In this document: positions 17,968-54,772 of the stretch, piece after piece | Position numbering within the stretch: the stretch's first letter is position 1 | Layout: every line of letters begins with the position of its first letter | Assembly (NCBI RefSeq): GCF_000447795.1 | Contig: NZ_AUNI01000021.1 | Coordinates: 124,001-188,000 of the forward strand | Source of the DNA: Bacteriovorax sp. Seq25_V | GTDB taxonomy: Bacteria; Bdellovibrionota; Bacteriovoracia; Bacteriovoracales; Bacteriovoracaceae | Length of the DNA stretch: 64,000 nt | Reading direction: 5' to 3' | Notes under the pieces: model-generated | Databases searched by the model: none | Seen by the model: only the letters and a program-made list of their open reading frames with translations | Told to the model about the DNA's origin: nothing | Program-made: the position numbers and the translations under genes

Positions 17968-19034
17968 TTATTACCTAAAGAATGTGTAAGTTGTTCTACA
18001 ATACGTTTTGACGCTGTTCCATTCCCATAAAAATTTTCAAATTGTTCTATACCTACACTCGAAATAAAGTTTTCATATTCAGCAATAATAAGATCTTCAT
18101 CTGCCCCAACAAGCTTATTAATCCCAGCATTAGTCAGTTCAACCCATTCGGTTTCATCGCGTAAAACAATACATCTTTTATTAAAAAAATAGGATTCTTT
18201 TTGTAGTCCACCAGAATCTGTCATAACAAACATACTATTGTGTATCAGATTAAGCATATCTAAGTAACCAACTGGATCAATTACTTTGAAAGATATTTGA
18301 ATTGAGAGTTTATCAATTAAAGCTTTAGTTCTTGGGTGTAGAGGACAAATAATTGTTGTCTTTTTTGAGATTGTGTTTAAAGCACTTATTATATTCTTTA
18401 GTCTGGTCGGATCATCTGTATTTTCTGCTCTGTGAAGTGTGCATAGAATAAAGTCAGTCGTTATGGGTAATGTCCTTTTTTTAGCCTTGTCTCTAAAGTG
18501 CAATGCTGCGTCAAGCATAACATCGCCGACATTATCTATTAAACAGTCGATGTTTTTGTATCCCTCTTTTTCTAGATTATGAACAGCTTCTACAGTTGGA
18601 CAAAAAAGGAAACTGGATATTCTGTCTGTTAAAATTCTGTTTATTTCTTCGGGCATGCGGTTGTTAAAACTCCTAAGGCCTGCTTCTATATGACAAATTG
18701 GTATATGAAGTTTACTAGCAGAAATCGCAGCAGCAAGAGTTGAGTTAGTATCGCCATAAACAATAACAAGAGAAGGTTTTTCTTTGATAAGAATATCTTC
18801 TATTGAAGAAATCATCTCACCAGTCATATGACCATGACTTTTACCATTGATACCGAGGTTATAATCAGGCTTTGATATATCAAGCTCTTCAAAAAAGATA
18901 TCCGACATATTAGCGTCAAAATGTTGCCCTGTGTGAATTAGGATATGCTCCAAACCATTATTAATGATTTCCTTAATAACTACTGAAGCCTTTATAAACT
19001 GTGGTCTGGCACCAATAACAGTAACAAATTTCAT
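17964..19034 (-). CDS. wbpI: UDP-2-acetamido sugar 2-epimerase, WbpI/WecB family
   Basis: A 356-residue non-hydrolysing UDP-HexNAc 2-epimerase. VIGARPQFIKAS at the N-terminus, VYGDTNSTLAA, HIEAGLRSFNNRMPEE and the SGGLQKE motif are all present. WecB (UDP-GlcNAc to UDP-ManNAc) and WbpI (UDP-GlcNAc(3NAc)A to the manno isomer) cannot be separated by these motifs. WbpI is preferred because wbpA, wbpB, wbpD and wbpE homologues are adjacent. The strong ribosome site AGAAGG precedes ATG, and a promoter pair lies in the intergenic gap shared with wbpA. First gene of a three-gene minus-strand operon. Confidence 0.85.
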   Translation of the reverse strand: MKFVTVIGARPQFIKASVVIKEIINNGLEHILIHTGQHFDANMSDIFFEELDISKPDYNLGINGKSHGHMTGEMISSIEDILIKEKPSLVIVYGDTNSTLAAAISASKLHIPICHIEAGLRSFNNRMPEEINRILTDRISSFLFCPTVEAVHNLEKEGYKNIDCLIDNVGDVMLDAALHFRDKAKKRTLPITTDFILCTLHRAENTDDPTRLKNIISALNTISKKTTIICPLHPRTKALIDKLSIQISFKVIDPVGYLDMLNLIHNSMFVMTDSGGLQKESYFFNKRCIVLRDETEWVELTNAGINKLVGADEDLIIAEYENFISSVGIEQFENFYGNGTASKRIVEQLTHSLGNK

Positions 19035-39583: not shown

Positions 39584-40267
39584 TTAAGTCTTAAGCAGTT
39601 TAAATTGTCTACTGAGGAATTCAAAATCATCCTCAGTGTCTACGTCTATTCCGATATCCTGGGGTAGAACAACGTGTTGGATTGGGTTTATGTCAATCAG
39701 TTTATTTACTTTCAATGTGGATAATAAATTGAAGATATAGAAACAACCACAATCACAAAAGCAGGGTGATAAATTTTTTGTGGGCTTTAGATACTCATTA
39801 GGAAAGAGTGGTGCTAGACCATCCGACCCATGTGTAAGCGCCAAAAAAGGAGACATGTTATACTCAGTTGTAGATAGAACAAGCGATTTTGTGTTTTGAT
39901 TAAATTTAGTTACAGCTTCTACATAATGTTCTGGTTTTACCAGGGCTGAAGTAGCGAGGGAGAAAAGAACATTGTTGGTTTTATAAAACTCAGAAAACCT
40001 CGGTATGTCGTATCTAATTAGATCCATAAATGTAGCATTATCGTTGCTAAGAGAATGTGGTCGTAAGTCAAGACAATTTACTTTGTCATATTGCTCGACG
40101 ATCGACTGGATTTCAAGTGAATCGGTCGAAACAGCTATGCCTTCTAAGCATTTTACTTGTTGTAATGACTCAATTACGTGACATATTATAGGTTTATCAT
40201 CAACAATTCTAATGTTCTTTTTGGGGACGCGTTTAGAGCCTATTCTAGCTGGGATATATGCAAACAT
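39584..40267 (-). CDS. CMP-nonulosonate cytidylyltransferase (PseF/NeuA family)
   Basis: A 227-residue nucleotidyltransferase. AYIPARIGSKRVPKKNI is the CTP-binding loop with the conserved R and K residues, followed by VSTDSLEI and RPHSLSNDNAT. DIGIDVDTEDDF at the C-terminus supplies the metal-binding acids. It activates a nonulosonic acid as the CMP sugar, the last cytoplasmic step; with a PseI-type synthase in the same operon the product is probably CMP-pseudaminic acid or a derivative. Its start abuts the stop of the RraA-like gene. Confidence 0.85.
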   Translation of the reverse strand: MFAYIPARIGSKRVPKKNIRIVDDKPIICHVIESLQQVKCLEGIAVSTDSLEIQSIVEQYDKVNCLDLRPHSLSNDNATFMDLIRYDIPRFSEFYKTNNVLFSLATSALVKPEHYVEAVTKFNQNTKSLVLSTTEYNMSPFLALTHGSDGLAPLFPNEYLKPTKNLSPCFCDCGCFYIFNLLSTLKVNKLIDINPIQHVVLPQDIGIDVDTEDDFEFLSRQFKLLKT

Positions 40268-40974
40268 TATTTTTTATCCAATGGCTTCCCTAGTTCATCG
40301 AGATTTGAAAGATGTGCTGCAGCCAATAGGTTTGTCTCGTGTAGATAAGCTTTGTCGCAAACAATTTTCTTCGTGTCCCATTTTAGAGTATCAAGACAGA
40401 AAAACCAGATATCCTCTTGCATCTCTATTCTCTCCAATCTGGTAAGCATAGTCTCAGAAATTAGGTCATTCTCAATAATGACAACTCCACCATCATCGCA
40501 TACCGCAATTGCGCCTTCATACTTTCTTAATATTTCTATTCTTAAATTATCTGGGAACGCATCAGCTTCAACGTTAAAACATCCAATTGGAGATACACCA
40601 TTTGACCAAACATTGAAGCCCTCTCTTTTTATTGCACCTATGTCACGAATCATGCCGTCGACAACTAAACATTTAGCACCTTTGTATAATAGTATGAATT
40701 TAGATACTAAATCGCCAAGAATTGCCCGTTCTTCACAATTGTGTGTGAAAACGATTACAACATCATCTTCTTTAATATCTCTAATCTGCTCATGTAATGC
40801 ATAGTTTGAATTGTTTGCAGTAAATACACATTTTATAGAACCCGCTATGTGAGTATTTTGTTTTACAGGCAGAACACCTTTTAGGGCGCCTGTTTTGCCA
40901 AGAGCATCAGCAACCTCTGTTGTTGAAACTCTGTTCTTTTCAATAAAATCTATTATTCTTTCTTTTATTTCCAT
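40267..40974 (-). CDS. RraA/HMG-aldolase-like protein
   Basis: A 235-residue protein of the RraA-like family. The TEVADALGKTG opening, GDLVSKFILLYKGAKCLVVDG and D106-G107-x-x-R110-D111 form the fold's active site; the D-G-x-x-R-D motif is the metal- and substrate-binding motif of 4-hydroxy-4-methyl-2-oxoglutarate/4-carboxy-4-hydroxy-2-oxoadipate aldolases, and is intact. A C-terminal extension of about 50 residues is extra. RraA-type proteins are not standard parts of nonulosonate pathways; an aldol or retro-aldol step on a keto acid is possible. It sits between a methyltransferase and the cytidylyltransferase with almost no gaps. Confidence 0.7.
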   Translation of the reverse strand: MEIKERIIDFIEKNRVSTTEVADALGKTGALKGVLPVKQNTHIAGSIKCVFTANNSNYALHEQIRDIKEDDVVIVFTHNCEERAILGDLVSKFILLYKGAKCLVVDGMIRDIGAIKREGFNVWSNGVSPIGCFNVEADAFPDNLRIEILRKYEGAIAVCDDGGVVIIENDLISETMLTRLERIEMQEDIWFFCLDTLKWDTKKIVCDKAYLHETNLLAAAHLSNLDELGKPLDKK

Positions 40975-40976
40975 AA

Positions 40977-41612
40977 TTACCTCTCAATTGCAGACTTCCT
41001 TAAAATAGTCGTGAATTCATATAGTCTATAGTCTGAATACAATGAAACATGTTTTGAGATCTTTAACAGCTCAGTTAAAACAGCTTCTGGATTAAAATGA
41101 TAGTTTTTATTTAGTGTGTAATCTACTCTATCTGTAAGAAAATTCAAGGAGACAATATCGTTAGAATTTTCGAATAATCTTTTACATACATCAATGGCGT
41201 ATTGAAAATTATTTGCAATTTTATAGGTAAAAACACCTGATGCAACAGAAATATCAATATTTAAATTTGATAAATCTAGGTCTAGAATTTGACCGTGTAT
41301 AAATTTATAATTTGGCTTGCTATGTTTTTGTTCTGCTAGTTTTAGTAACGATTCAGAGATGTCGATACCGATGTAGTTGAAGTTACTTCCTACCTTGTCT
41401 TCAAGATAATATATCAAGTCACCAAGCCCACATCCAAAATCTAGAATCGTTTTTCCTGATGGGTCTATATCACGAAATAACATTTCAAACCTTAAAAACT
41501 GGCTTTCCTTGTCACGCCAACCTACAGATTTAATATCATCGCCAAGTTCTAAGCATCTTTGATTATAAAAATCAGAAATAGCTTGAAAGTCATTTTGTGA
41601 GTTATTTACCAC
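40977..41612 (-). CDS. Class I SAM-dependent methyltransferase
   Basis: A 211-residue Rossmann methyltransferase. ILDFGCGLGDLIYYL is motif I, NYIGIDISESLLKLA motif post-I, and DISVASGVFTYK motif III. It is short and without an N-terminal extension, as in small-molecule methyltransferases. It overlaps the amidohydrolase gene by 7 bases and is two bases from the RraA-like gene. The sugar acid or a pendant amino-acid group is a likely target; not proved. Confidence 0.8.
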   Translation of the reverse strand: MVNNSQNDFQAISDFYNQRCLELGDDIKSVGWRDKESQFLRFEMLFRDIDPSGKTILDFGCGLGDLIYYLEDKVGSNFNYIGIDISESLLKLAEQKHSKPNYKFIHGQILDLDLSNLNIDISVASGVFTYKIANNFQYAIDVCKRLFENSNDIVSLNFLTDRVDYTLNKNYHFNPEAVLTELLKISKHVSLYSDYRLYEFTTILRKSAIER

Positions 41613-42367
41613 TCCATCATCCTTGTGAAATTTCTATAAAATAACTTCTCAAGATCATCAGAAGAAATTCCACTTTCTTTTAAGTAAGCATATGAAGCAT
41701 TATATGTGTCTGTAATACTTCTGTCTGGATAATCGGATCCATAAAAAATTCTATCGAATCTCATACTTTTCATTGCATATATCATGTCTTTCGGAACTGA
41801 GCTGCCTTGATAATATAGTAATGAATAAGAGAAATCAAAGTACACATTTGGTAAACGTTTGGCCAGCATCATCATGTCGATAACATGATGTCCGCCCATG
41901 TGTGCCCATATAATTTTTGAATCAGGGCACTTTTTAGCACAACTAGCAAATTTGAAGGGTGAAAAACCATCCATTAATGCTGTTCCATCAGGAAAAGCAT
42001 CGATAAGAGTTGGTAGATTTAACTCACCGGCATATTGAATAAGCGCAACGACATTTGGGTCATCTACAGAAAACTGCTGAATCCTAGGATGAAGCTTTAA
42101 ACCACAAAAACCGAGGTTTTTAGCTCGTAGTAAATCAGTTTCAGCATCTATAGAATTAGGATCAATGTTGGCAAATGCTTCAATTCTTTCATACTTATTA
42201 ATTTGGTCTGCTACTTCCTCGAGGGACCAGCCCTGAATAATTAGATGAAGTACTATCGCCTTTGAAATGGATGCCTCTTGTAATTCGCCATTAAGCCCTT
42301 TGAAGGCAGCTTCAAGCGTACGATATTTAACTTTGTCTAAATGTAGGTGACTGTCAATAATCTTCAT
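41606..42367 (-). CDS. Amidohydrolase-2 family metal-dependent hydrolase
   Basis: A 253-residue TIM-barrel hydrolase. The metal ligands are visible: H7 and H9 in IDSHLHLD, a second-shell KLHPR, WAHMGGHH and the terminal FYGSDYPDRS with the catalytic Asp. Relatives cleave C-N bonds or decarboxylate small acids (ACMSD-like). It overlaps the ATP-grasp gene by ATGA-type contact and the methyltransferase by 7 bases. In this operon it may remove or rearrange an amide or carboxyl on the nonulosonate precursor; no such step is known to me from the standard pathway. Confidence 0.75.
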   Translation of the reverse strand: MKIIDSHLHLDKVKYRTLEAAFKGLNGELQEASISKAIVLHLIIQGWSLEEVADQINKYERIEAFANIDPNSIDAETDLLRAKNLGFCGLKLHPRIQQFSVDDPNVVALIQYAGELNLPTLIDAFPDGTALMDGFSPFKFASCAKKCPDSKIIWAHMGGHHVIDMMMLAKRLPNVYFDFSYSLLYYQGSSVPKDMIYAMKSMRFDRIFYGSDYPDRSITDTYNASYAYLKESGISSDDLEKLFYRNFTRMMEW

Positions 42368-43563
42368 TCTACTTCATATATAATCTGTTTCTCGGCAAGA
42401 TCAGCTTTCTTTAATGCTTCATCTAAAGAGGATGCCCAGGTGATTATACACCCAATACGATCGCCGTCACAAGCAGCTTCTGGAAAATCTTGGCCAACGA
42501 CAGCAAATGCTTGACCATAGGTGTTGTTAAAACCATTCACTTTGTCATAACCTTCAAGTTTTTTAATTCTACCTTTTTTACTTGGAGTAAACCTTAGAAC
42601 TCCAAAGCTGTGTCTTTGCTGCACTTTGTTGTTGGCTTGACCGGTCAAAATATTGATTAACTCATTGGTTACATTTCTAGATGTAACTAGTGGAATAAAT
42701 TTTTCAAATAGTAAGAAGCCTCCACCCCTGCCTGCAACTTCAATTATTCCAACAGTGCCATCCTCTTTTAAAATGACTTCAGCATGACCGATACCAAATG
42801 TGTAGCCAAGTGCTTTGAATGCATCAAAAACAGGGGTGCTTATATTACAAACTTCTTGATCACTAAGCTCTGGTGTAAATAGCTCAAATGCAACTGTGCC
42901 ATTAGTGTGAGGTAGTTTCTTCTTCTTAGTTATTGTCAATAAATCAGTTCTCTCTGGAGTACAGAAAACTTCAACAGTATATTCAGTACCCTTCATATAC
43001 TCTTCAATTATTATTTCTTTTGTGCGAGAGAAGTTGAGTGCAGAACTAATTAGTGTTGAATTTTCTTGTGAATCGGTACCGAGTAAAGCAACGCCCCTAC
43101 TACCAGCACTATCTGTTGGTTTAACAATTAATTGAACATTTGCATTGGAGCAGAAATTTAATGCATCATCTTTACTTTTAAAAATTGAAAATTTCGGGAT
43201 GGGTACATTTGATTTTGCCCAGATGTTTCTTTGTATTCCCTTATTTATGAGTGCTGATGTGAGAGGAATGTTTGGGCCCGGTAGTGAAAAGTGTTCTCTT
43301 ATTTGTGCGGCCAACATCATACCGGCTTCTGAACAATAACTAATCGCACCAACATAATTTAACTTAAGGTCATCTAGTGTTTTGAGTATCAAACTAGTAT
43401 CAGATATATTTAAATTTATACTTTTATCTGCGATTGTAAATCCTGGACAATCTTTTTGACCATCAATTGCAATTACCTTAAAACCCATCTGTTGAGCAGC
43501 CTTAATACCAGCAATTTGCCATGTTCCTGCTGTTGCTGCAATTAGCCAGCGTTCATTGTGCAT
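42364..43563 (-). CDS. ATP-grasp ligase
   Basis: A 399-residue ATP-grasp protein. The N-terminal domain is a Rossmann-like pre-ATP-grasp (LIAATAGTWQIAGIKAA); IVKPTDSAGSRGVALL is the ATP-lid segment, EEYMKGTEYTVEVF the hinge, and GIIEVAGRGGGFLLFEKF the metal-binding end. The family joins a carboxylate to an amine or thiol through an acyl phosphate. Beside FemAB-like, GNAT and class III aminotransferase genes it suggests that an amino acid or hydroxy acid is amide-linked to the sugar. It overlaps the PseG-like gene by 11 bases. Confidence 0.85.
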   Translation of the reverse strand: MHNERWLIAATAGTWQIAGIKAAQQMGFKVIAIDGQKDCPGFTIADKSINLNISDTSLILKTLDDLKLNYVGAISYCSEAGMMLAAQIREHFSLPGPNIPLTSALINKGIQRNIWAKSNVPIPKFSIFKSKDDALNFCSNANVQLIVKPTDSAGSRGVALLGTDSQENSTLISSALNFSRTKEIIIEEYMKGTEYTVEVFCTPERTDLLTITKKKKLPHTNGTVAFELFTPELSDQEVCNISTPVFDAFKALGYTFGIGHAEVILKEDGTVGIIEVAGRGGGFLLFEKFIPLVTSRNVTNELINILTGQANNKVQQRHSFGVLRFTPSKKGRIKKLEGYDKVNGFNNTYGQAFAVVGQDFPEAACDGDRIGCIITWASSLDEALKKADLAEKQIIYEVE

Positions 43564-44404
43564 TCAAAACCTCGACTATATATTTTGTTATATTTTCTAA
43601 ACCTTTACCATCAACTAAGGGTTTGAAATTCTTCTTGAATTCGGCAGGATTAAAAGAATTTAAATTATCTAAATATGAGTATCCTACTCCAATTATTGAA
43701 CCATTAGTACGCACGTGCGCTGAAATTCTTTCTTCAGCTTCTGTTTGGGGTATAATAACTACAGGTTTATGTAAATATAGTAATTCAAACAAAGTTCCAC
43801 CTCCGTTTGTAATAGCAATATCACATTGGTGCATCAATGATGGCAAGTTTTTAGGATTTTGTACTATCTTAAGGTTACTGTTTTCAAATGATTCTAATTT
43901 AGCGAGTGGCCCATAAACTAAAGTAACATAAAAACCTTTTTCTAAGAGAATCTTCGCAATAGGCAACGAATCTTTTTTTAGGTCACTACCACCAAGAGAA
44001 ATCAAGACTTGATTTTCAAAAATATTTTTGCCTTCTTTGGGTAGTTGTAAAATTTCGTCTCTAATAATTGCAAAATTGAAATTTTGAATTCGGTTATTAT
44101 GAGAATGTTGATTGTGTTCGTAAATTGATAAAGTTAGATCGGTAGATGAATTATAATTTGTATCTAAACCAATAGTTCGAATATTTCTCGCTTTTAAGAT
44201 ATTCACTTCTTCAGACATATCATATGGATTATCAAAAATAACTAAATCGCACTGGATTGAGCCGAAATTAAGATTTACGTGATTTAAATCAATAAACTCA
44301 GAGTGAAAATTTTTATTCAAATAGTTATGTAGAGAAAGAGATCTTCTATAGTGACCAAAGCCAATCTTATCATTTGAACAAGTTAATATCAAAATCCTTT
44401 TCAT
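43553..44404 (-). CDS. pseG: UDP-sugar hydrolase/transferase, PseG/SpsG family
   Basis: A 283-residue GT-B-like protein. TCSNDKIGFGHYRRSLSL holds the G-x-G-H of PseG (catalytic His), VLISLGGSDLKKD opens the second domain, and IAITNGGGTLFELLYLHKPVVIIP is the UDP-binding end. PseG hydrolyses UDP-2,4-diacetamido-2,4,6-trideoxy-L-altrose to release the free sugar for PseI, and it lies next to the PseI gene here with ATGA overlap. The glycine-rich loop is slightly different from textbook PseG, so a related hydrolase acting on another UDP-amino sugar is possible. Confidence 0.75.
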   Translation of the reverse strand: MKRILILTCSNDKIGFGHYRRSLSLHNYLNKNFHSEFIDLNHVNLNFGSIQCDLVIFDNPYDMSEEVNILKARNIRTIGLDTNYNSSTDLTLSIYEHNQHSHNNRIQNFNFAIIRDEILQLPKEGKNIFENQVLISLGGSDLKKDSLPIAKILLEKGFYVTLVYGPLAKLESFENSNLKIVQNPKNLPSLMHQCDIAITNGGGTLFELLYLHKPVVIIPQTEAEERISAHVRTNGSIIGVGYSYLDNLNSFNPAEFKKNFKPLVDGKGLENITKYIVEVLNAQ

Positions 44405-45462
44405 TCTATGTCTATGTCTATGTCTTCAAGTTTTAATCTTTCACCAAATTCTAGATCACGTTTAACTGGTTTATTGAGTACAGAGTCAAAATATTTTGGT
44501 GCTAAGCCCAGCCCCGGTCTAACTGATTTAATATTGTTTGGAGTTAGTAGCTCACCCTTTTTTATATTTTTTGAAACATATAAAGATCTTTTCCCCCTTA
44601 AGTTATTCTTTGAAGATTTCGTGAGATCAAAATTAGCAACGCCAATTGCTGACTCAACTTTTCTTATCGAGGAAACCATTTGTTTGAACTCAACAAAATC
44701 AAGAGAAAAGAAGGAGTCAACTCCTGTGTTAGATTTATCAACTGTAAAATGTTTTTCAATAATTTTGGCTCCAAGAGCTACTGAAGCAATAGGTACTTCA
44801 ATACCGAGTGTATGATCTGATAAACCAGCTATGCAATTATATCTTTTTCTTATTTCGGGTATTGTTGCAAGATTAATTTCATCAAGTGGCGCAGGATAAG
44901 CGGTTGTGCATTTTAAAAAAGCATATTGATAACAACCATTATCCTCAAGCGTTTTAATTGCAAGTTCAATATCTTCAACGGTCGCCAAACCTGTTGAAAG
45001 GATTATTGGTTTATTTGTAAGTGCGACTTTCTTGATTAACTGAAGATCATTTATTTCAGGAGATGCGATTTTGTATGCAGGAGTATTTAAGCTTTCAAGC
45101 AAGTCAACCGCTGTTTCATCAAATGGGCTAGAAAAGATATCTATTCCAACTTCATGCGCTACTTTGAATAATTTTTTATGCCATTCCCAAGGGGTGTGGG
45201 CTTCTTCATAAAGAGAATAAAGATTCTTGGAGCCTGCCCAAGGAGAATCTTTTGGCAACAAAAAATCTTCTTTGTTAGAATCTAAAGTGATGGTAGATGC
45301 TTTATAGGTTTGAAGTTTGACAGCGTCTGCACCAGCCTCCTTGGCTTTCTTTATGATTTCGATAGCATAATTAATATCACCATTATGATTACCAGACATT
45401 TCTGCAATTATATACGCTGGTGACAAATCAGAGATTTCAGTGCCATTAATTTTAAATATCAT
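44401..45462 (-). CDS. pseI: Pseudaminic acid synthase (NeuB family)
   Basis: A 353-residue nonulosonate synthase: TIM barrel with AEMSGNHNGD, AGADAVKLQTYKAST and LYEEAHTPWEWHKKLF, the last being a PseI rather than NeuB/LegI feature; LSDHTLG and EKHFTVDKSNTG follow, and an antifreeze-like SAF domain occupies about 290-345. It condenses phosphoenolpyruvate with the free 6-deoxy amino sugar from PseG. The C-terminal residues DIDIDIE come from a 3.5-copy hexanucleotide repeat at 44405-44425. Overlaps the PseG-like gene in ATGA. Confidence 0.9.
   Translation of the reverse strand: MIFKINGTEISDLSPAYIIAEMSGNHNGDINYAIEIIKKAKEAGADAVKLQTYKASTITLDSNKEDFLLPKDSPWAGSKNLYSLYEEAHTPWEWHKKLFKVAHEVGIDIFSSPFDETAVDLLESLNTPAYKIASPEINDLQLIKKVALTNKPIILSTGLATVEDIELAIKTLEDNGCYQYAFLKCTTAYPAPLDEINLATIPEIRKRYNCIAGLSDHTLGIEVPIASVALGAKIIEKHFTVDKSNTGVDSFFSLDFVEFKQMVSSIRKVESAIGVANFDLTKSSKNNLRGKRSLYVSKNIKKGELLTPNNIKSVRPGLGLAPKYFDSVLNKPVKRDLEFGERLKLEDIDIDIE
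44405..44425. repeat. Hexanucleotide tandem repeat at the end of pseI
   Basis: TCTATG is repeated three and a half times. On the minus strand it encodes Asp-Ile three times at the extreme C-terminus of PseI, just before the overlapping start of the PseG-like gene. A change of copy number keeps the frame and adds or removes one Asp-Ile pair. Confidence 0.8.
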
Positions 45463-45531: not shown

Positions 45532-46488
45532 CTAAATTTGTGCGCTGCTAAGGCTTGTCCATGGAGCATTCCTGATAATATTTGATGGTATCTCATGGTG
45601 TACAGGGAGAAGGTGAAGTTGTTCTAATTTTGGAAGAGCCCAATCTAGACTAGAATTGAAGAATCTCTTCTCAATCTCTATGTTATATTGTTTAAAGTAT
45701 TGAATAATATCTTGAGTTGCTCTAAAGGGAATTGCTGAAGGGAATGAAATATCATTCTGTTTAATAGGAATAATATCTTTAAGTGTTTCAATGTTATTTT
45801 TTCGTAATTCACTAAAGCTATGAAAACTATTGAGTTTTTCTGAAATATTATTAAGTGCGAATTCATGTAATCTTGATGGCACAGATTCAATACCATGCCA
45901 AAGTTGCAAGAAAGGATGTTTTCTATAATAGCTTAAAGATTTAGTGATATATTTTAAAAAAGAGTAGTCAAAGTTATAGTCTCGAATATTCTTAAGTTCA
46001 TTAGCTATCTCGATGGATTGACATAAGCATAGACCACCGGAAAATGTACCTAAAACCTTGGGTAGTGATATTAACGAAATAGCTGAATGTTTAAATATAT
46101 TTTCTGAATTGAAAATGAAAGAATCAGCACGATCATCTACAATAATTTCAGAAGGCAAATTGGCAAATACAAAACCTAGTTGATGATAATTAAATGAGAG
46201 ATTCGCTTTATAATTTAAGGTTGGAGTAGATTTTCTTGAAATAGCTTCTAATACACAATGAGAAGAATATGGAGCGGTAAAGATTTGGTCGTTGCGACCC
46301 TTGTTGTATAGTTCTAGAATTGCTGGAATAGATGCTCTCGCACTCGAGAAAAGAACGGGAAATGTGTTCGGATAAATAGTTTGAAATTTTAATTCAATAT
46401 CAAGACTAGTTTTCGAAGTAAACGCGAAAGTAGGTTTAGAGTTTAGCCAAAAATTTTTCACGAAGTTGCTCACTTGAGTTATATTCAA
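45532..46488 (-). CDS. Divergent DegT-like PLP-fold protein
   Basis: A 318-residue protein with the outline of a DegT/DnrJ aminotransferase: LFSSARASIPAIL (phosphate-binding start), FTAPYSSHCVLEAI, EIIVDDRADSF in place of the EDAAQ region, and SLISLPKVLGTFSGG, where the Lys would be the Schiff-base residue. It lacks the usual C-terminal dimer arm motifs and is shorter than the ~370 residues of the family. It overlaps the FemAB-like gene by 53 bases; GTG codons at positions 6 and 10 offer later starts. A catalytic or structural partner of the acyltransferase is possible; function unknown. Confidence 0.5.
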   Translation of the reverse strand: MNITQVSNFVKNFWLNSKPTFAFTSKTSLDIELKFQTIYPNTFPVLFSSARASIPAILELYNKGRNDQIFTAPYSSHCVLEAISRKSTPTLNYKANLSFNYHQLGFVFANLPSEIIVDDRADSFIFNSENIFKHSAISLISLPKVLGTFSGGLCLCQSIEIANELKNIRDYNFDYSFLKYITKSLSYYRKHPFLQLWHGIESVPSRLHEFALNNISEKLNSFHSFSELRKNNIETLKDIIPIKQNDISFPSAIPFRATQDIIQYFKQYNIEIEKRFFNSSLDWALPKLEQLHLLPVHHEIPSNIIRNAPWTSLSSAQI

Positions 46489-47488
46489 ATTTATTACATA
46501 TTAAAGCGCAAGTGACTCCAGAGAAACCTCTTTTAAAAAAATTAATAGCACTAACCTTCTTTTCAATTGATGTGTTGGAAATAGATGGAGGACACATCGC
46601 CATATCAACTAATGAAAGTCCTCTGTTATAAGCATATTCTACTCCTGACCATAGACCAAGATGCCCCACACCATCTGTATTTGATACAGAGGGATCGGTC
46701 GCACTTGATGCATAAAGAGCAATAAGGGAACTCTTAAAGAAAAAATAAGTTCCTAAAACCTCTTCATTTTTTGAGATAATTATTAAATAAGCATCGTCAG
46801 ATCTGATCATTTCATACATAAGATCGAAAGTTTTTTGGGGACGGGTTTCTCTTCCAGCAGCTTTGTTATGTAAAAACTTATACTTTTGACACTCGTCGTA
46901 AGAATAGGTTTTGTAATCGATAATACTTACAGAAAAACTCTTTTTCGTTTTATTAATAAGTGGCTTGTAGCTTTTTCTTAGATTGAACCATAGATGTTCG
47001 AGCCCGCTTCTGAGATCAATAACATTAGCCTCTATGATATAGTTGGAAGAACTGGCAGCTTGGAAAAAAGGGAAAAAATATTTATCAATTAAGTATGAAG
47101 AAGGATCATGCGCAAAATATATATTTCTAATATCAAATTTTTCAATGATCTGTGAAATTTGCTCTGAAATGAATTGTGATGTTTTACTCAATTGTTTCGT
47201 GGATTGATGAGTAAAAAATGGCGCTTTAATATATTCATTCTGCCCAAATGATATTTGATTATATCCAGTGCGACTGTTTTTGAAAATGTAAAGTGGCACA
47301 ATTGCAAGATACTCAGTATCTTTTTTTACTATAAAACTTGCATTATGAATCATTCCAGAAGATGAGAAATACTCTTCATAATAACTTAAAGCGGAAGCTG
47401 TATATATTGGCAGAGGCGTAACAAGGGATTTGTGCGCCCTTGACCATTCTTCTTTGAAGCTAATATCTGTTACTTTAATTGTTATCAT
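46436..47488 (-). CDS. FemAB/GNAT-like acyltransferase
   Basis: A 350-residue protein of the FemXAB-like double-GNAT type. The N-terminal half has IVPLYIFKNSRTG and FGQNEYIKAPFF; the C-terminal half has LHNKAAGRETRPQKTF, a short beta segment (YLIIISKNEEVLGTYFFFK) and GHLGLWSGVEYAYNRGLSLVDMAMCPPS. FemAB proteins transfer aminoacyl groups; relatives in glycan clusters N-acylate amino sugars. It may supply the PseH-like acylation, or attach the amino acid activated by the ATP-grasp enzyme. Starts at the stop of the class III aminotransferase gene. Confidence 0.7.
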   Translation of the reverse strand: MITIKVTDISFKEEWSRAHKSLVTPLPIYTASALSYYEEYFSSSGMIHNASFIVKKDTEYLAIVPLYIFKNSRTGYNQISFGQNEYIKAPFFTHQSTKQLSKTSQFISEQISQIIEKFDIRNIYFAHDPSSYLIDKYFFPFFQAASSSNYIIEANVIDLRSGLEHLWFNLRKSYKPLINKTKKSFSVSIIDYKTYSYDECQKYKFLHNKAAGRETRPQKTFDLMYEMIRSDDAYLIIISKNEEVLGTYFFFKSSLIALYASSATDPSVSNTDGVGHLGLWSGVEYAYNRGLSLVDMAMCPPSISNTSIEKKVSAINFFKRGFSGVTCALICNKFEYNSSEQLREKFLAKL

Positions 47489-48813
47489 TAGTTAAATTTT
47501 CTAAATACCGGTTTTACAATATCACCACTTATGTGCTTCTGAAGATCTCCATTTTCAAATCCGGACTTTATCTTGATTAAACATTCTCCAATAACGTCTA
47601 TCGCAAAATTAATATCAGACTCAGTGTGTGCAAAAGAGGGAACAACATATGGAAACATTAAGCCTCTTTTCAAGGACTCTTGTAGAAAGTATGTTCTTGC
47701 TTCCCAAGAAAAATTTCCTTTGTTGTCGACAAATCCGAACGAAGGTTTACATCCATATCCACCTATTTGTATGTAATCAATAGTGTTATCAGATAAAGCT
47801 CTTTGCCTAATACCTTTTTGTAGGCTCTCCCCAACTTTCCAAAAGTGGTCAATTATATTGTGCTTCATGATTTCTGTTATTGTAGCTTTTGCTGCTGCAA
47901 GAGAATGAGTTTCACCACCATGAGTAGTTGATAATAAGAAAACACGTTCTTGATCGTGATCAATCCCTCCAAGCTTCATTATATCTCTTTGACCAACTAA
48001 AGCACTGACAGAAAAGCCATTTGCCATTGCTTTTCCAAGGGCTGTCAAGTGAGGCTTTATGCCTAAAAACTCTTGAGCCCCACCAAGTCTAAATCTAAAG
48101 CCTGAAACAACTTCATCAAAAATTAAAACTGAACCATTTTTTTCGCATAAATCTTTTAATTGTTGTAGAAAGTTATTGCTTGGTTCTATGAAAGAAAGAG
48201 GCTCTAGTAAGAAGCAGGATATTTGATTTGGATATTCATCAAACAATTTTTTTACACTGTCTATATTGTTATATTCAAATTGTAAGGTTAGATCTCTAAC
48301 ACATTTTGGAACTCCTCTGCTTATTATTGTTGAGCCAATGAACCAATCGTGAACGGCATTAAATGGATCGTTCTTGCATCTTGCGACATAGTCTCTTCCT
48401 GTGTAGGCCCGGGAAAGTTTTACTGCTGCAGTTGTTGCATCAGAGCCATTTTTGGCAAACTTTACCATCTCGGCTGATGGAATAATTTGAGTTAGTAATT
48501 CTGCGAGATCTCCCTCAATAACTGAGGGTCTAGTGAAGTTTACGCCTTTATAAATTTCGGCTTCAACAGCTTTTAAAATAGGTCCATATGCATGACCAAG
48601 TGTTACGGTTCCTAAAGACATAGCAAAATCTGTAAATTCATTACCTGCCATGTCATATAATTTGCATCCCTTTCCGTGTGAAACAATAAATGGTTGATCC
48701 GATGGGAATTGATCTGAGCCTTTCGAGTATGTATGTGATCCGCCAGGAATTAAACTTTTGGCTCTGTCTGAAAAAGGTTTGTTTGCTTCAAAATTATATA
48801 TTTTTGTGTTCAA
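47488..48813 (-). CDS. Class III aminotransferase, glutamate-1-semialdehyde aminomutase-like
   Basis: A 441-residue PLP enzyme when begun at TTG 48813 (MNTKIYNFE). The family N-terminus SDRAKSLIPGGSHTYSKG follows shortly, and GGAG lies five bases before this TTG. An open frame continues 50 codons upstream but looks unlike the family. KNGSDATTAAVKLSRAYTGRD, LIFDEVVSGFRF and LGKAMANGF (Schiff-base Lys) identify the class. In flagellin- and glycan-modification islands such enzymes amine keto groups on the sugar or make an amino-acid side chain. The gap to the next upstream gene (125 bp) holds no other gene I can support. Confidence 0.85.
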   Translation of the reverse strand: MNTKIYNFEANKPFSDRAKSLIPGGSHTYSKGSDQFPSDQPFIVSHGKGCKLYDMAGNEFTDFAMSLGTVTLGHAYGPILKAVEAEIYKGVNFTRPSVIEGDLAELLTQIIPSAEMVKFAKNGSDATTAAVKLSRAYTGRDYVARCKNDPFNAVHDWFIGSTIISRGVPKCVRDLTLQFEYNNIDSVKKLFDEYPNQISCFLLEPLSFIEPSNNFLQQLKDLCEKNGSVLIFDEVVSGFRFRLGGAQEFLGIKPHLTALGKAMANGFSVSALVGQRDIMKLGGIDHDQERVFLLSTTHGGETHSLAAAKATITEIMKHNIIDHFWKVGESLQKGIRQRALSDNTIDYIQIGGYGCKPSFGFVDNKGNFSWEARTYFLQESLKRGLMFPYVVPSFAHTESDINFAIDVIGECLIKIKSGFENGDLQKHISGDIVKPVFRKFN

Positions 48814-48822
48814 ATGAACTCC
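48811..48822 (-). promoter_or_regulatory. Ribosome site that decides a TTG start
   Basis: GGAG (48819-48822) with a five-base spacer precedes TTG (48811-48813) on the minus strand. This explains why the aminotransferase begins here rather than at the more distant ATG at 48963. Confidence 0.65.
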
Positions 48823-48938
48823 AGTTTTTTTGTGATAATAAAGTAATATGATTTTAGCAGTGTGATAATTGGAAGTAAAAGAGAAATGATCTCGTAAGCA
48901 GTGTGCCAAGCGCAAGGTGCTCAATCTGGCCGAAAATT

Positions 48939-49808
48939 TTAGATTAAGCCATTTTTTTTCCACGTAAGTGGATCAATAACATCTTTTATGTTTGAACTAA
49001 ATTGTGAAAAATCAAGTTTTTCGCAAGGGCTTATTTCGTTATTAATAATAAAATCTTGTAATTGATCTTGAGAACAAACACCAAATACTATGGAATCGAT
49101 AAAGTCAAGGTTGTTGTTGAAGTTACAAACTGCTTGTATTCTATTAATTTTGTTATCTTTTAAAAAGCGACTATATCTTTCAAATAAATCAATATAAGGT
49201 TTGAAGTAAAGGTCTAGCTTATCGACAGGTTGAAGTAATAGACCTTGAAGATATATAGATCTTATATGTATTTCGATACCTTTTCTTTTAGCTTCTGTTA
49301 ATAAATTTTTGGCAAGAAATCTTTGGTCGAAAATATTTAGTGGAATTTGCACTATGTCAAGCTTGGTATCGTTATCTAGAATGAATTCCAATTCTTCGGG
49401 ATTATAAAGTGACACGCCAATCTTCTTTAAGAACCCCTCTGATTTGATAGCGTTTAAATTTTCAACAAGATTCCTATTATGCTTAAGATCATCAAATTTA
49501 TGAATTAAATATGCATATAGACTTTGGGAGTTTAAATTTAGCAAAGACTTTTCAATGCTGTCTCTGAGGCCTTTTTCATTCGAGGTATTCACTCCCTTTG
49601 TTATAACATTGAAATCACTAATATGATTATAGCTACCAAGTATTTTTTCCGCTTCACCGTAAGCTGAAGCGGTATCGAGTGTATTAACACCATTGGCTCT
49701 GGCGTAATCTAAAATTTTGAATACTTCTTCGATGTTAACTTGACCGTCTTTGTTAGTAAGCCCATAGTTTAAACCAAATTGTACTGTTCCAAGGACTAAA
49801 TTTTTCAT
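48939..49808 (-). CDS. Aldo/keto reductase
   Basis: A 289-residue TIM-barrel reductase. LGTVQFGLNYGLTN is the N-terminal form of sugar-cluster AKRs; GVNTLDTASAYGEAE holds the catalytic Asp and Tyr, and YAYLIHKFDD carries the His. The C-terminal NADP-binding segment is short (IVFGVCSQDQLQDF). Similar genes are found in flagellar and surface-glycan islands next to class III aminotransferases. It probably reduces a keto group on the sugar or on a side-chain precursor. The start directly follows the stop of the SDR-PseC fusion. Confidence 0.85.
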   Translation of the reverse strand: MKNLVLGTVQFGLNYGLTNKDGQVNIEEVFKILDYARANGVNTLDTASAYGEAEKILGSYNHISDFNVITKGVNTSNEKGLRDSIEKSLLNLNSQSLYAYLIHKFDDLKHNRNLVENLNAIKSEGFLKKIGVSLYNPEELEFILDNDTKLDIVQIPLNIFDQRFLAKNLLTEAKRKGIEIHIRSIYLQGLLLQPVDKLDLYFKPYIDLFERYSRFLKDNKINRIQAVCNFNNNLDFIDSIVFGVCSQDQLQDFIINNEISPCEKLDFSQFSSNIKDVIDPLTWKKNGLI

Positions 49809-51917
49809 CTAAGAGAGTACCTTTACAATCTGCGATATTATAAGATCTACTTCTTCATCGGTTATCGAAGGGAAAAGAGGTAATGTAATTGCTTGATTGT
49901 AGTAAATAAGGGAGTTGGAATAGTCCTTTAGAGGTATTTTAAATGTTTCGGCATAATATGGTTGTAATGGAATTGGAATATAGTGTACATGGGGAGATAC
50001 ACCTGCTGAAGATAATTCTTTAAAAACTTGAGCACGTGATTTTCCAAGTTTTTCATAATTAATCATTGCAACATAAAGATGATTCCCGCTTATATCTCTT
50101 GTTTTGTTTTGAACAAGTTTAAAATGTTTAAGAGATGAAAATGCTTTATCATAACGTTTGGCAACCTCAATTCTTCGCGATAGAAATCCTTCTAGCTTAT
50201 TCATTTGAGAAATACCAAGTGAGCATTGAATATCTGTTATTCTGTAATTATACCCAATTTGTTGCATTTCATAGTACCAGCTATTTTGAGATCCATCAGT
50301 ATAAGCTAGCTCATCATTTTTGAAAGGGTCATTCCCTTTAATTATTCCATGGCTTCTTAGTCTTAGTAATTGCTTATAAACTTCAGTACTGTTTGTAGTA
50401 ATTATAGAGCCTTCACCAGTTGCAATATTCTTGACGGGATGAAAAGAAAAACCGCACATAAGTGAGTTTGAACACGATCCAATTTTTCCACCTTCTAAAT
50501 AGTTACCACCGAGAGCATGAGCAGCATCTTCAATAATAACGGCACCATATTTATCGGCAACCTTTTTGAGTTCTTGCATATCGCAAGGGTGACCAGCAAA
50601 ATGTACGGGGATAATTGCTTTAACATTACCAAGCTCTTTACATTTTCTTTCAACTTCGATTGGGTCGAGATTGAGTGTCTCAATATTTATATCTGCAAAA
50701 GCAGGTATCGCGCCAGAGTAAACAGCGCAGTTAGAGCTTGCAACAAATGACAGTGGAGAAGTGATCACGCTGTCTCCTGGTAATACACCAGCAGCAAGAC
50801 AAGCAATATGAAGGCCACAGGTCCAATTAGAAACAGCGACTGCATATTTTGCTCCAACAAATTTTGCAATTACATCCTCAAACTCTTGAACCTTGGGTCC
50901 TTGTGTTAAAAAATTTCCATTCAAAGTTTTTATTACAGAGTTTATATCTGACTCATCTATGAATTGTTTTCCATAGTGGATTTGTTTTTCTTCCTTAATT
51001 GATACAGAAGATAAAAATTTAGTATGTACACCCACAAACTCAGCTTGTTTCATTAGTTCAAGTGATTCCTCAATTGTAAGAAACTTTGTGTTTAATAGAG
51101 ATATAGCTTTTTCGTTAGAGAGAGACATATTGAGAGGTCTATTTACGAGATTTCCAATATCCTTAATTGAACCTTTGTTTATTAAGGAAACATTAAGGTC
51201 AAATGCCTTAGCAACCTTTAAACCAAATTCATATTTTGAAACTTTTTCTGGACCTACAATATTAAAAATACCTTCAGCATTTCTTTCAACTAATAAATTA
51301 ATCTTTTTTATTAAATCTTCTACATAAATTGGAGTGTAGTAAACATCATCAAATAATGTGATAGTTTTTTTCTTTCTTAAGGAGTTTATTATAACATCGG
51401 AGAAAGATTTTCGGTATTTATGTCCCCATCCATAAAAATTAGTTCTTACAATAAGAGGATCGGATGCACTTCTCTTAACTTCAAACTCGGCATCAAGTTT
51501 TGTTTTTGCATAATTGTTAATAGGGATATCTATTTGATTCTCGTCTGAAAGCAAAGACGCTTGACTGCAGAAATGATCAGTAGAAATATGTACAAGTTTT
51601 GCATTGACTAGCTTAGAGGCCTTCGCAATATAACGAGAAGCTAAAACATTAGATTCGTAAGCTTGGAAGTAGTTCTTTTCACAATATTCGACATTAGTTA
51701 AGCCTGCTGTATGAATTATGATATCGGGGGAAAACTTTTCAATCTCACGATAAACTTTCATTTCGTCACTTAGATTTAGGTGTGTACAAGATACACCATC
51801 GAGCTCTACTAGTTTTGATTTACAAAATAAAGAAATATCCCAAATATCTTTCATGAAATAAGCTAAGTTTATCCCTAAAAGACCACTGCCACCTGTGATA
51901 AGAACTTTTTTCTTCAT
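49809..51917 (-). CDS. SDR reductase - PseC transaminase fusion
   Basis: A 702-residue two-domain protein. Residues 1-290 are an RmlD-like short-chain reductase: ITGGSGLLGINLA, VHISTDHFC and YAKTK (Y-x-x-x-K intact). Residues from about 315 are a full PseC: HYGKQFIDESDI, FLTQGPKVQEFE, EDAAHALGG and FHPVKNIATGEGS with the Schiff-base Lys496. PseC aminates C4 of UDP-4-keto-6-deoxy-L-AltNAc; the SDR would reduce a keto group on a related intermediate. The reading frame runs through the join without a stop. I know of no named fusion of this kind. The order dehydratase, exporter, fusion, reductase suggests the fusion works in the nonulosonate pathway. Confidence 0.85.
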   Translation of the reverse strand: MKKKVLITGGSGLLGINLAYFMKDIWDISLFCKSKLVELDGVSCTHLNLSDEMKVYREIEKFSPDIIIHTAGLTNVEYCEKNYFQAYESNVLASRYIAKASKLVNAKLVHISTDHFCSQASLLSDENQIDIPINNYAKTKLDAEFEVKRSASDPLIVRTNFYGWGHKYRKSFSDVIINSLRKKKTITLFDDVYYTPIYVEDLIKKINLLVERNAEGIFNIVGPEKVSKYEFGLKVAKAFDLNVSLINKGSIKDIGNLVNRPLNMSLSNEKAISLLNTKFLTIEESLELMKQAEFVGVHTKFLSSVSIKEEKQIHYGKQFIDESDINSVIKTLNGNFLTQGPKVQEFEDVIAKFVGAKYAVAVSNWTCGLHIACLAAGVLPGDSVITSPLSFVASSNCAVYSGAIPAFADINIETLNLDPIEVERKCKELGNVKAIIPVHFAGHPCDMQELKKVADKYGAVIIEDAAHALGGNYLEGGKIGSCSNSLMCGFSFHPVKNIATGEGSIITTNSTEVYKQLLRLRSHGIIKGNDPFKNDELAYTDGSQNSWYYEMQQIGYNYRITDIQCSLGISQMNKLEGFLSRRIEVAKRYDKAFSSLKHFKLVQNKTRDISGNHLYVAMINYEKLGKSRAQVFKELSSAGVSPHVHYIPIPLQPYYAETFKIPLKDYSNSLIYYNQAITLPLFPSITDEEVDLIISQIVKVLS

Positions 51918-53690
51918 TTATAATTCCTGTAGTTTAACTAATTTTGCAAATTTTCCATCGAGATTATTAAGTTGGATGAAGTTTCCTTCCTCTAATATTT
52001 TACCATTTTCTAAATAGTATATCTTTTCACAAGCTCTAACGGTACTTAGTCTATGCGCAACAATTACTAGAGTTATACTATGCTTTAAATTTTCAAGTGT
52101 AACTTGAATTTTAGCTTCCGAATGAGAGTCAAGCGCACTCGTTGGTTCATCCAAAATCAAAATGTTCGGTTTTTTATAAAGAGCTCTAGCGATAGCAAGA
52201 CGTTGTTTCTGACCACCAGATAAAGTTGACCCTTCTTCCTCTAGAATTGTATTTAAACCGTTAGGTAGGGATATAATTTCATCATATATATTTGCTAAGT
52301 GAAGACATTCTATAACTCGATCTTCGTTTGGAGTAGCTTCTCCAAGTGATACATTATCAATTATTGTTCCACTTAAAATAATTGTCTCTTGGGATACAAA
52401 ACCAATATGTGATCTCCAACTACTTATTGATAAGTTGGACATGTCCAATGAATCGATAAGAATCTTGCCAGATGTCGGGTGATTTAACCCCGTAAGTAAT
52501 TTTATAATAGTTGATTTTCCAGAACCGGAAGGTCCAACAAAAGCTACCGTTTCTCCCTTATTGATTTGAAGGCAAAGGTTTTTTAAGACCTCTGTGCTGT
52601 GATTGTAGGAAAAGGAGATGTTGTCGAAAATAATACTGGATTCAAATTTATGGAGATTAATTCCACTGTAATTCTCTTTTTGCCTTAAGGTTTCATCAAT
52701 AAAATTCTTCAATAAAACAAAACTTGGAGTGCTTGATATAATTACCTGCTTATTTGTAGTAAACTGGCTTACTAGAGGTAGTAGGTTTCTCAGAGTATAT
52801 AGAACAATTAATACTTCAGCAAAAGTCAGGTTAAAGTAGTTAATCGAGATAATAATAATTATAGACACAAGAATGACTGAAATAGGCTCATATATTATTG
52901 CGCTAAGCTCTCGAGTTAAAATCATCTTGGCGTGAGTGAGTTTGAAGTTGAGAAAACTATGTTTAAAGCGGGAAATATACAGGTGTTCGGCAGCAAAAGA
53001 TTTGATCGTAACTAAACCATCAAATACCCTTATTAGATGATTATTAATATTATTTCCTAATATTACACGTTCATTTGAAATTAAGAATATTTTTTTGTTA
53101 AATATTAAAGATGGTAGTAATGTAAATATGCTTACTGATCCAATCATTAATACAAGAGAAATAGAAAACGAAAGTAAGATTGAAAAGTAAAATACAAATT
53201 TTAACAAAATTGCCATAAGCCCAAAGGCATAATATAAGCACTCGCCTATCTTTTGAGTTTCAACATTAATGTAGTTGCTAACTTCCCCAGAATTGTGTTT
53301 ATTTAGCCATTGTCCACGTGAATATGTTAGAGCTTCAAAAAGCTGAAGACCTAAGTCTGTTTCATAAAGAACTCTTGTTTTTAAAACAAAATATTTAGTT
53401 AGGTAATTAAAAGCTGCTTTAAATGTAATTATTACTGCAAACAAAATGAAGTAATTGTTAATAGTCGTATCGATATTTAATCGAGAAAAAAGAGAGTTTA
53501 TTCTTATTGTAAACGTTGAATACTGTGATGGAGGAGTTGAGTTTAAATACTCAATAATAGGAATTAAGGAAACAACACTTAGGGCATCGACTACAGCAAA
53601 AAGTGTTGAAGAAGTAGTTGATGCAATTGCCATTTTTGAGTGTTTTGTAAATACACTCTGGAGCAAATGAAATGTGTCCTTGTAGTTCAC
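51918..53690 (-). CDS. ABC exporter, MsbA/PglK-like
   Basis: A 590-residue half-transporter: six membrane helices in about 1-320, then an ATPase with Walker A GPSGSGKST near 386, LSGGQKQRLAIARAL and LILDEPTSALD, and the H-loop AHRLST. It resembles PglK, which flips lipid-linked oligosaccharides, and MsbA. It starts with GTG (AGAG six bases upstream) and lies between the dehydratase and the SDR-PseC fusion, so it may flip a lipid-linked product of this operon. The glycan locus also has a MOP flippase at 16714, consistent with two separate products. Confidence 0.9.
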   Translation of the reverse strand: MNYKDTFHLLQSVFTKHSKMAIASTTSSTLFAVVDALSVVSLIPIIEYLNSTPPSQYSTFTIRINSLFSRLNIDTTINNYFILFAVIITFKAAFNYLTKYFVLKTRVLYETDLGLQLFEALTYSRGQWLNKHNSGEVSNYINVETQKIGECLYYAFGLMAILLKFVFYFSILLSFSISLVLMIGSVSIFTLLPSLIFNKKIFLISNERVILGNNINNHLIRVFDGLVTIKSFAAEHLYISRFKHSFLNFKLTHAKMILTRELSAIIYEPISVILVSIIIIISINYFNLTFAEVLIVLYTLRNLLPLVSQFTTNKQVIISSTPSFVLLKNFIDETLRQKENYSGINLHKFESSIIFDNISFSYNHSTEVLKNLCLQINKGETVAFVGPSGSGKSTIIKLLTGLNHPTSGKILIDSLDMSNLSISSWRSHIGFVSQETIILSGTIIDNVSLGEATPNEDRVIECLHLANIYDEIISLPNGLNTILEEEGSTLSGGQKQRLAIARALYKKPNILILDEPTSALDSHSEAKIQVTLENLKHSITLVIVAHRLSTVRACEKIYYLENGKILEEGNFIQLNNLDGKFAKLVKLQEL

Positions 53691-53701
53691 GTTATTCTCT
53701 A

Positions 53702-54772
53702 CTAGCGTAAAAGTTCGCCTTCCTGCTCTTTGTCTAGGTTAAATTCAAGCAAATTATTTTCTTTTAATAAATTAATTGTGCCTTGAAGATCTAAGACATC
53801 ATCGTCTGAACTAAATTCTTTTGATAATTCTTTCTCGGTGGATTTTATTATTCCATCATTTAATTCAGGTAGCATTGATTTGATTGCGTAATAATCGCCT
53901 TTTCTAACTGTGTGATTGATTTCTTCTTCAGAGATCATGATTTCATGCATTTTCTCGCCTGGTCTGATTCCAGTGATTTTAATTTCGATGCCAGTATTAC
54001 CTACAATAGCTTTTGCAATATTTTCAACCGTTGCGGCAGGGGCTATTGGAACAAAAGTCTCACCCGCTTCGGCATTTTGAATAGCTGCAAAAACAGTATC
54101 AACAGCTTTGTTTAAATTAAGAAGGAAGCGAGTCATGTTTGGTACTGTGACTGTTATAGGCCCACCAGCTTTCATTTGCTCGTGAAAAAGTGGAATAACA
54201 GAGCCTCTTGAGGCAAGAACATTCCCATACCTTACACAAATAAATCTAGTTTCAGGAATCAAGATATTAGCAGAAGTAAATATTCTTTCTTGAACTGCCT
54301 TTGTCATGCCCATTACGTTAACAGGCTTAGCGGCTTTATCTGTACTAATGCCGACGACTGTTTCTACATTAAAGTTATTTTCTCTAATTGCTTGTACAAT
54401 ATTACTTGCACCAATACAGTTTGTTAAAATTGCCTGGTGAGGAAAGTACTCACAAGTGGGAACTTGCTTCATTGCGGCTGCATTTACAACAATATCAGCA
54501 TCTTTGATAGCGGAGCAGACTGTTTGGTAGTCTCTTACGTCACCAATGCGAAACTCTAGAACTTTTTTAAAGTTTTCATAAACAGCTTCATCCATTCCGA
54601 CAATTCTGTTTTGATAAGACATTCTCATGTCGTGTTGTTTTGCTTCGTCTCGAGATAAAATTATAACTTTTTTTGGGTTTCCAAGTTCTCCTGATAATAC
54701 TCTTCGAACAAAAATTTTGCCCATTGAACCTGTACCACCTGTAACTAGAATTCTTTTACCTTCAAAAACCAT
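53702..54772 (-). CDS. UDP-GlcNAc 4,6-dehydratase, PseB/CapE-like (MxxxK type)
   Basis: A 356-residue soluble extended SDR. TGGTGSMGKI (11-20) binds NAD, GISTDKAAKP has the catalytic Thr144-Asp145-Lys146, and the usual Tyr of the YxxxK motif is Met154 (M-x-x-x-K158). This is the pattern of CapE/FnlA-like and PglF-like dehydratases, while PseB/FlaA1 has Tyr. The product is UDP-4-keto-6-deoxy-HexNAc, of L-arabino (5-inverting) or D-xylo form. PseC in the same operon favours the inverted form. It is the first gene of the 16-kb minus-strand operon and has a candidate promoter upstream. Confidence 0.8.
   Translation of the reverse strand: MVFEGKRILVTGGTGSMGKIFVRRVLSGELGNPKKVIILSRDEAKQHDMRMSYQNRIVGMDEAVYENFKKVLEFRIGDVRDYQTVCSAIKDADIVVNAAAMKQVPTCEYFPHQAILTNCIGASNIVQAIRENNFNVETVVGISTDKAAKPVNVMGMTKAVQERIFTSANILIPETRFICVRYGNVLASRGSVIPLFHEQMKAGGPITVTVPNMTRFLLNLNKAVDTVFAAIQNAEAGETFVPIAPAATVENIAKAIVGNTGIEIKITGIRPGEKMHEIMISEEEINHTVRKGDYYAIKSMLPELNDGIIKSTEKELSKEFSSDDDVLDLQGTINLLKENNLLEFNLDKEQEGELLR

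Follow-up and report, generated by a model that had tools for sequence, protein, structure and literature searches.

A recurrent fusion of an RmlD-type reductase with the aminotransferase PseC, and its possible place at a 4-keto sugar branch point

On family knowledge and from their NCBIfam names, we take PseB and CapE/FnlA to be 5-inverting dehydratases that make UDP-4-keto-6-deoxy-L-HexNAc. FnlA or CapE together with a reductase provides a route to 2-acetamido-2,6-dideoxy-L-hexoses, and we know of no case in which the reductase of this route, or that of the viral Mg534/Mg535 route, is fused to an aminotransferase. In Megavirus, as given in an excerpt of PMC4691112, a 5-inverting UDP-GlcNAc 4,6-dehydratase (Mg534) is followed by a C3-epimerase/4-reductase (Mg535), yielding UDP-L-RhaNAc. 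The same excerpt describes a fork in Mimivirus (R141, L780 and L136), where UDP-4-keto-6-deoxyglucose is the shared substrate of a 4-reductase and a PLP aminotransferase. Classification of the dehydratases differs between sources; NCBIfam names FnlA a 4,6-dehydratase/5-epimerase, whereas the excerpted part of a review (PMC8987622) classes the dehydratase of the UDP-L-FucNAc route as retaining, not 5-inverting. A further arrangement is found in the pseudaminic acid operon of Bacillus thuringiensis, in which a second SDR, Pal, lies beside the dehydratase Pen (PMC5109656, in excerpt).

We analyzed a window of 64,000 nt from Bacteriovorax sp. Seq25_V, by which we mean the whole stretch of DNA; the fusion gene, the dehydratase, exporter, aldo/keto reductase and class III aminotransferase genes near it and the PseI, PseG-like and PseF-like genes all lie on its minus strand. 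At 49809–51917, an ORF with an ATG start encodes a protein of 702 aa, while the translated plus-strand frame over the same interval contains many stops. A first-pass annotation had read this frame as an RmlD-like reductase with an intact YxxxK motif joined to a full PseC with Lys496, and profile searches agree. Pfam matched PF04321 (RmlD_sub_bind) at residues 4–289 (E 6e-38) and PF01041 (DegT) at residues 320–697 (E 9e-100), and the NCBIfam PseC model TIGR03588 matched residues 313–701 with 444.1 bits against a cut-off of 423.5, covering profile positions 2–380 of 380. The SDR domain (residues 1–296, 51030–51917) contains the sole YxxxK of the protein, YAKTK, at residues 136–140 (51498–51512). 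It is followed without interruption by a short linker between the two matches (residues 297–312, 50982–51029) and by the PseC domain (residues 313–701, 49815–50981), where the lysine of an FHPVKN motif is residue 496 (codon 50430–50432), the PLP lysine of this family. In the predicted full-length model, residues 297–304 form a helix and the domains are confident (mean pLDDT 92.6); as pTM is 0.70, we draw nothing from the domain arrangement. The genome encodes no further PseC that passes the cut-off. The fusion differs from ordinary PseC in its N-terminal SDR and in its score, which is low compared to the 480–582 bits of 54 Burkholderiales PseCs (E up to 1e-120).

The fusion gene lies in a close-packed run in which 12 of 13 gaps are at most 11 bp, eight of them overlaps. 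The run opens with a UDP-GlcNAc 4,6-dehydratase of the CapE/FnlA/PseB group (53702–54772), the predicted supplier of the 4-keto sugar on the basis of solved relatives and NCBIfam, and an ABC exporter with a fused ATPase (51918–53690, profile match) that adjoins the fusion gene with a gap of 0. On the other side, also with a gap of 0, stands an aldo/keto reductase (AKR; 48939–49808, PF00248), then a GSAM-like class III aminotransferase (47488–48963, NF004856 over cut-off) and an overlapping pair at 45532–47488. This pair, with relatives in genome G055 (locus L026), comprises a FemAB-like protein, which with 84.9 bits misses the TIGR04421 cut-off of 250, and a putative PLP aminotransferase, which with 130.8 bits passes that of TIGR04422 (75). 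The later part of the run encodes the pseudaminic acid synthase PseI (44401–45462; TIGR03586, 475 bits against 340), a PseG-like UDP-sugar hydrolase (43553–44404; TIGR03590 at 68.5 bits, short of the required 153.6) and a PseF-like cytidylyltransferase (39584–40267; PF02348, with TIGR03584 at 123 bits, below the cut-off of 206). Between the last two, at 40267–43563, lie genes for an ATP-grasp ligase, an amidohydrolase, a methyltransferase and an RraA/aldolase-like protein, possibly an acyl-tailoring set for nonulosonate amines.

Among 129 genomes of the class, counting the one that holds the window, three have a match that spans both domains: that of the window and, at full length, G041 (55% identity) and G055 (51%). 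A fourth genome of the class, G126, holds a close standalone SDR relative (38%, with the SDR domain alone as query). Scanning the genome collection with the SDR domain returned 98 relatives, and we analyzed the best 80 of the 98 loci, those of G041 and G055 included (L069 and L074 are the same places and add no further cases). Besides the window's own fusion, the two domains are joined as SDR-PseC in ten of these 80, among them G041 and G055, and in the reverse order, PseC-SDR, in one (L148, 681 aa). A separate SDR gene with PseC nearby was found in 38, and 31 showed no PseC in the locus DNA examined, some of which reach a contig end; L125 and L134 are cut by a contig end. We counted L140 as fused (688 aa) although the start of its PseC frame lies 3 bp inside the SDR match. 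An additional SDR-PseC frame is present in L249 (699 aa), and a second, more divergent PseC-SDR frame in L253 of genome G185 (684 aa). Both reverse-order fusions, L148 and L253, come from Pelagibacteraceae, and the divergent SDR part of L253 has RTNFSGIS in place of RTNFFGWG. With 11 fused loci among the best 80 of 98 in addition to the window, one of them in the opposite order, the join is not a sequencing or assembly error in a pair of otherwise always separate genes. Plasmids gave no such protein: none of the 54 records with a match covered 80% of the fusion at E 1e-60.

In a quick tree, which lacks L253, fused sequences are spread over Bdellovibrionota, Bacteroidota and Pelagibacteraceae, and the fused label needs at least five changes. 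Constraining all 12 fused rows together nevertheless gave a tree of slightly higher likelihood (AU p 0.54), so the forward SDR-PseC order may have a single origin. The reversed order (L148 and the divergent L253) is a separate event or a domain permutation. Because the pair recurs fused or nearby across loci, with the SDR family often next to PseB and PseC in several phyla, we regard the SDR as an old companion of the pseudaminic acid pathway; the first-pass view that an SDR of this type is foreign to that pathway is not supported. The open-licence literature that we searched contained no description of an SDR-PseC fusion or of an RmlD partner of PseC, weak evidence that this recurrent domain architecture, built from known kinds of enzymes, is new as far as searched.

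By sequence and predicted fold, the SDR is of RmlD type. Its profile match to the RmlD structure 2ggs reaches 189 bits, and its AlphaFold model (mean pLDDT 96) has RmlD proteins as its top Foldseek matches, with VIA Z of 32.5–36.0 to the RmlD structures listed and the best value for 1vl0 (Z 36.0, rmsd 1.7 over 277 residues). Unlike RmlD proper (dTDP-4-dehydrorhamnose reductase), it scores only 133.6 bits with TIGR01214, below the cut-off of 224.05, and carries a conserved block of its own, RTNF[FY]GWG...[RK].SFSD, which is strongly conserved in 79 aligned SDRs (L139, with an internal stop, and L145, too short, were left out). Since the score lies below the RmlD cut-off, the family does not give the substrate, and because a separate RmlD over cut-off (294 bits) is encoded elsewhere in the genome, the domain is unlikely to be the rhamnose reductase of this organism. 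The active site is conserved, with Tyr136 and Lys140 invariant in all 79 sequences and upstream S112 and T113 present in 76 and 78 of them, respectively. Two other identities were discarded. Gene order suggested Pal, but profile search and fold comparison place the SDR with RmlD, and we retain Pal only as a functional rival. The SDRs AciB and AciE of acinetaminic acid synthesis are members of PF00106/PF13561 rather than RmlD relatives (PMC5595891, in excerpt).

The dehydratase of the window is closest to CapE among solved relatives (240 bits), followed by FnlA (236), PseB (215) and Pen (167). It remains below the cut-offs of both the PseB model (TIGR03589, 295.0 bits against 407.75) and the FnlA model (TIGR04130, 254.9 against 730); it is the best PseB-type match in its genome, where none exceeds the cut-off. 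G041 has, one gene upstream of its fusion, a dehydratase that by sequence is FnlA-like and not PseB, with 504 bits to the FnlA structure 4j2o against 240 to PseB, and 552 bits with TIGR04130 (cut-off 730) against 323 with TIGR03589. In 48 of the best 80 of 98 loci, the SDR has a strong PseB match no more than 3 kb away; the other 32 include loci that stop at a contig end and loci whose matches are weaker. NCBIfam scores for seven dehydratases taken from SDR loci put five above the PseB cut-off, at 440–522 bits (L080, L102, L116, L119 and L140), and leave those of the window (295) and G041 (323) below it. SDR-PseB pairs also stand beside LegB/LegC (L072 and L102) and, in SAR116 loci, beside a KdsA relative (Kdo synthesis). 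A related trio occurs in L035:500-3579 of genome G025: an RmlD-like SDR of 297 aa (23% to the SDR family of the fusion), a dehydratase 65% identical to that of the window and a relative of the WecB-like 2-epimerase at 17964–19034 of the window, which together look like a route to L-FucNAc or L-QuiNAc.

The SDR accompanies PseB-type dehydratases even where the locus shows no PseC. For 13 genomes, hand-chosen from the 31 with no PseC in the SDR locus, a search of assemblies that may be incomplete single-cell or metagenome products found no PseC over cut-off (best 397.5 bits against 423.5), and in 12 of these 13 loci the SDR is next to PseB. As a control, eight of nine genomes with SDR and PseC loci contained a PseC over cut-off, the ninth (that of L140) reaching 421.6 bits. 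The SDR thus tracks the maker of UDP-4-keto-6-deoxy-L-HexNAc whether PseC is there or not; the reaction expected of an RmlD-type enzyme on this ketone is reduction at C4.

We favor, with somewhat more confidence than doubt, a reading in which the fusion works at a branch point and unites the two arms of a fork, one domain reducing and the other aminating C4 of the same UDP-4-keto-6-deoxy-L-HexNAc. A dehydratase of CapE/FnlA/PseB type, probably that at 53702–54772, would make this sugar. The C-terminal PseC domain would aminate C4 of part of it, toward pseudaminic acid, and the N-terminal SDR would reduce the same C4 ketone, probably with NADPH, to UDP-2-acetamido-2,6-dideoxy-L-hexose. Here, we infer the substrate, cofactor, direction and product stereochemistry as well as the activity of both domains and their joint control. 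The first-pass annotation had proposed an extra redox step coupled to C4 amination. Redox activity beside amination is probable from sequence, but the reduced amino sugar that it anticipated is chemically unlikely, because amination at C4 leaves no ketone to reduce. The fusion itself is confirmed and the earlier interpretation partly supported. Competition for one ketone fits better, because some genomes that lack a PseC over cut-off nonetheless carry a PseB-SDR pair. Fusion in both orders and the 4-bp overlaps of adjacent SDR and PseC genes described below also speak for the fork. Against it, competing enzymes are seldom fused, and fusions more commonly join consecutive steps. The 32 loci with no strong PseB match near the SDR, the SDR score below the RmlD cut-off, the failure of the window's dehydratase to reach either the PseB or the FnlA cut-off and the retaining class given in PMC8987622, where we follow the NCBIfam name, weigh on the same side.

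Related routes and forks have been described. The FnlA/CapE and Mg534/Mg535 routes likewise combine a dehydratase and a reductase to give 2-acetamido-2,6-dideoxy-L-hexoses (for the viral pair, see the excerpt of PMC4691112), and the partner dehydratase of G041 is FnlA-like. The Mimivirus fork offers one 4-keto-6-deoxy sugar to both a reductase and an aminotransferase, as excerpted from PMC4691112, but there the proteins are separate and the sugars belong to the UDP-glucose series. Both arms in one chain are undescribed as far as the open-licence literature was searched.

Among alternatives, a role in series before PseC is unlikely but survives best. Like Pal, the SDR would complete or correct the dehydratase reaction, by 5,6-reduction or C5 epimerization, to give the right 4-keto sugar. 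The common gene order PseB-SDR-PseC mirrors the order of the Pen and Pal steps, fusion of consecutive enzymes is normal, and excerpts of PMC5109656 and PMC7439481 have Pen and Pal stand in for PseB in B. thuringiensis. Pal, however, belongs to another SDR subfamily: by profile its structure (6bwl) matches just the N-terminal half of the domain, at 43.9 bits where RmlD reaches 189, and in the fold comparison it has Z 31.0 against 36.0. Moreover, the five dehydratases that pass the PseB cut-off should need no helper, even if those of the window and G041 fall below it, and the PseB-SDR pairs in genomes without PseC over cut-off speak against a step that prepares the substrate of PseC.

We give a low probability to the idea that the SDR acts later, on the nonulosonic acid side chain, in concert with the AKR and class III aminotransferase encoded nearby. 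Its basis is an association that the fork reading leaves unexplained. Of 37 loci that have both SDR and PseC and no less than 6 kb of DNA downstream, 29 also contain AKR and GSAM. The corresponding counts for PseC loci that lack a clear SDR match are three of 53 in Burkholderiales, two of these three showing weak SDR-like matches (68 and 87 bits), and one of 13 in the phylum of the window. The groups were sampled differently, the first by way of the SDR, the counts are raw as to phylogeny, and several of the 54 Burkholderiales loci (for example, L202, L217 and L229) are short, so that AKR or GSAM could have escaped notice. The phylum set leaves out L029, L030 and L038, includes L033, L034 and L039 from another family, has PseC-like genes only partly checked against the cut-off, and contains two loci, L033 and L041, too short downstream to show AKR or GSAM. 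The association points to a larger module, perhaps one for side-chain amination of the nonulosonate. We do not tie the SDR to that step, because AKR and GSAM occur without a clear SDR match in L040 and L196 (and in L208 with the weak 68-bit match) and, conversely, some loci with PseB and Kdo or Leg genes have the SDR but neither of the two. In addition, its fusion partner PseC acts on a UDP-sugar.

These loci show further peculiarities. In G055, L025:17211-19310 encodes a 699-aa fusion of a cytidylyltransferase (PF02348) with a class III aminotransferase (PF00202), and GSAM genes of 675–680 aa in L078, L100, L108 and L111 may, judged by length, be the same fusion. In G041, L024:3151-4638 encodes a 495-aa fusion of PseG (over cut-off) with a GNAT domain whose PseH match stays below cut-off. 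The same locus contains, at 96–1082, a second NeuB that is divergent, passing neither the NeuB nor the PseI cut-off; it overlaps its own weak cytidylyltransferase (1079–1816) and lies beside a second, closer PseI relative. Such a divergent NeuB is present in 17 of 37 SDR+PseC loci with 6 kb downstream, where a second ulosonic acid may be made.

A plain operon fusion, in which two co-transcribed genes for different sugars lost the intervening stop and gained no joint function, appears quite improbable. The arrangement lends itself to it: in 23 of the 26 loci where SDR and PseC are adjacent separate genes in this order, PseC could start at a codon that gives an overlap of exactly 4 bp with the end of the SDR gene (TTG or GTG in four, L080, L089, L096 and L130), and a small indel would therefore suffice for fusion. 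A single origin of the SDR-PseC order, not rejected by the constrained tree, agrees with such an accident, but lineages as distant from each other as Bdellovibrionota, Bacteroidota and Pelagibacteraceae have kept the fused form, and it exists in either order. Least probable of all is a cofactor-binding regulatory or scaffolding role for PseC, as that of MAT2B for methionine adenosyltransferase: MAT2B is among the closest solved relatives of the SDR by profile and fold (141 bits, Z 33.2–33.8), but the active-site Tyr and Lys are invariant in 79 of 79 SDRs and the standalone gene persists in genomes without PseC over cut-off.

Returning to the branch-point reading, the tethered reductase and aminotransferase might also set the ratio of 2-acetamido-2,6-dideoxy-L-hexose to pseudaminic acid, possibly with both sugars in one glycan in fixed proportion, the pair having been joined by selection at least twice, once per order, or joined once with the order swapped afterward. 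We hold this extension to be rather doubtful. If the branch-point reading is right, a widespread SDR would gain a substrate and a place in a pathway, as the C4-reductase arm that drains the PseB/FnlA product, and clusters annotated simply as pseudaminic acid loci would also make a second L-sugar. With the fusion, the partition of a metabolite at such a branch would then be directly measurable within one protein.
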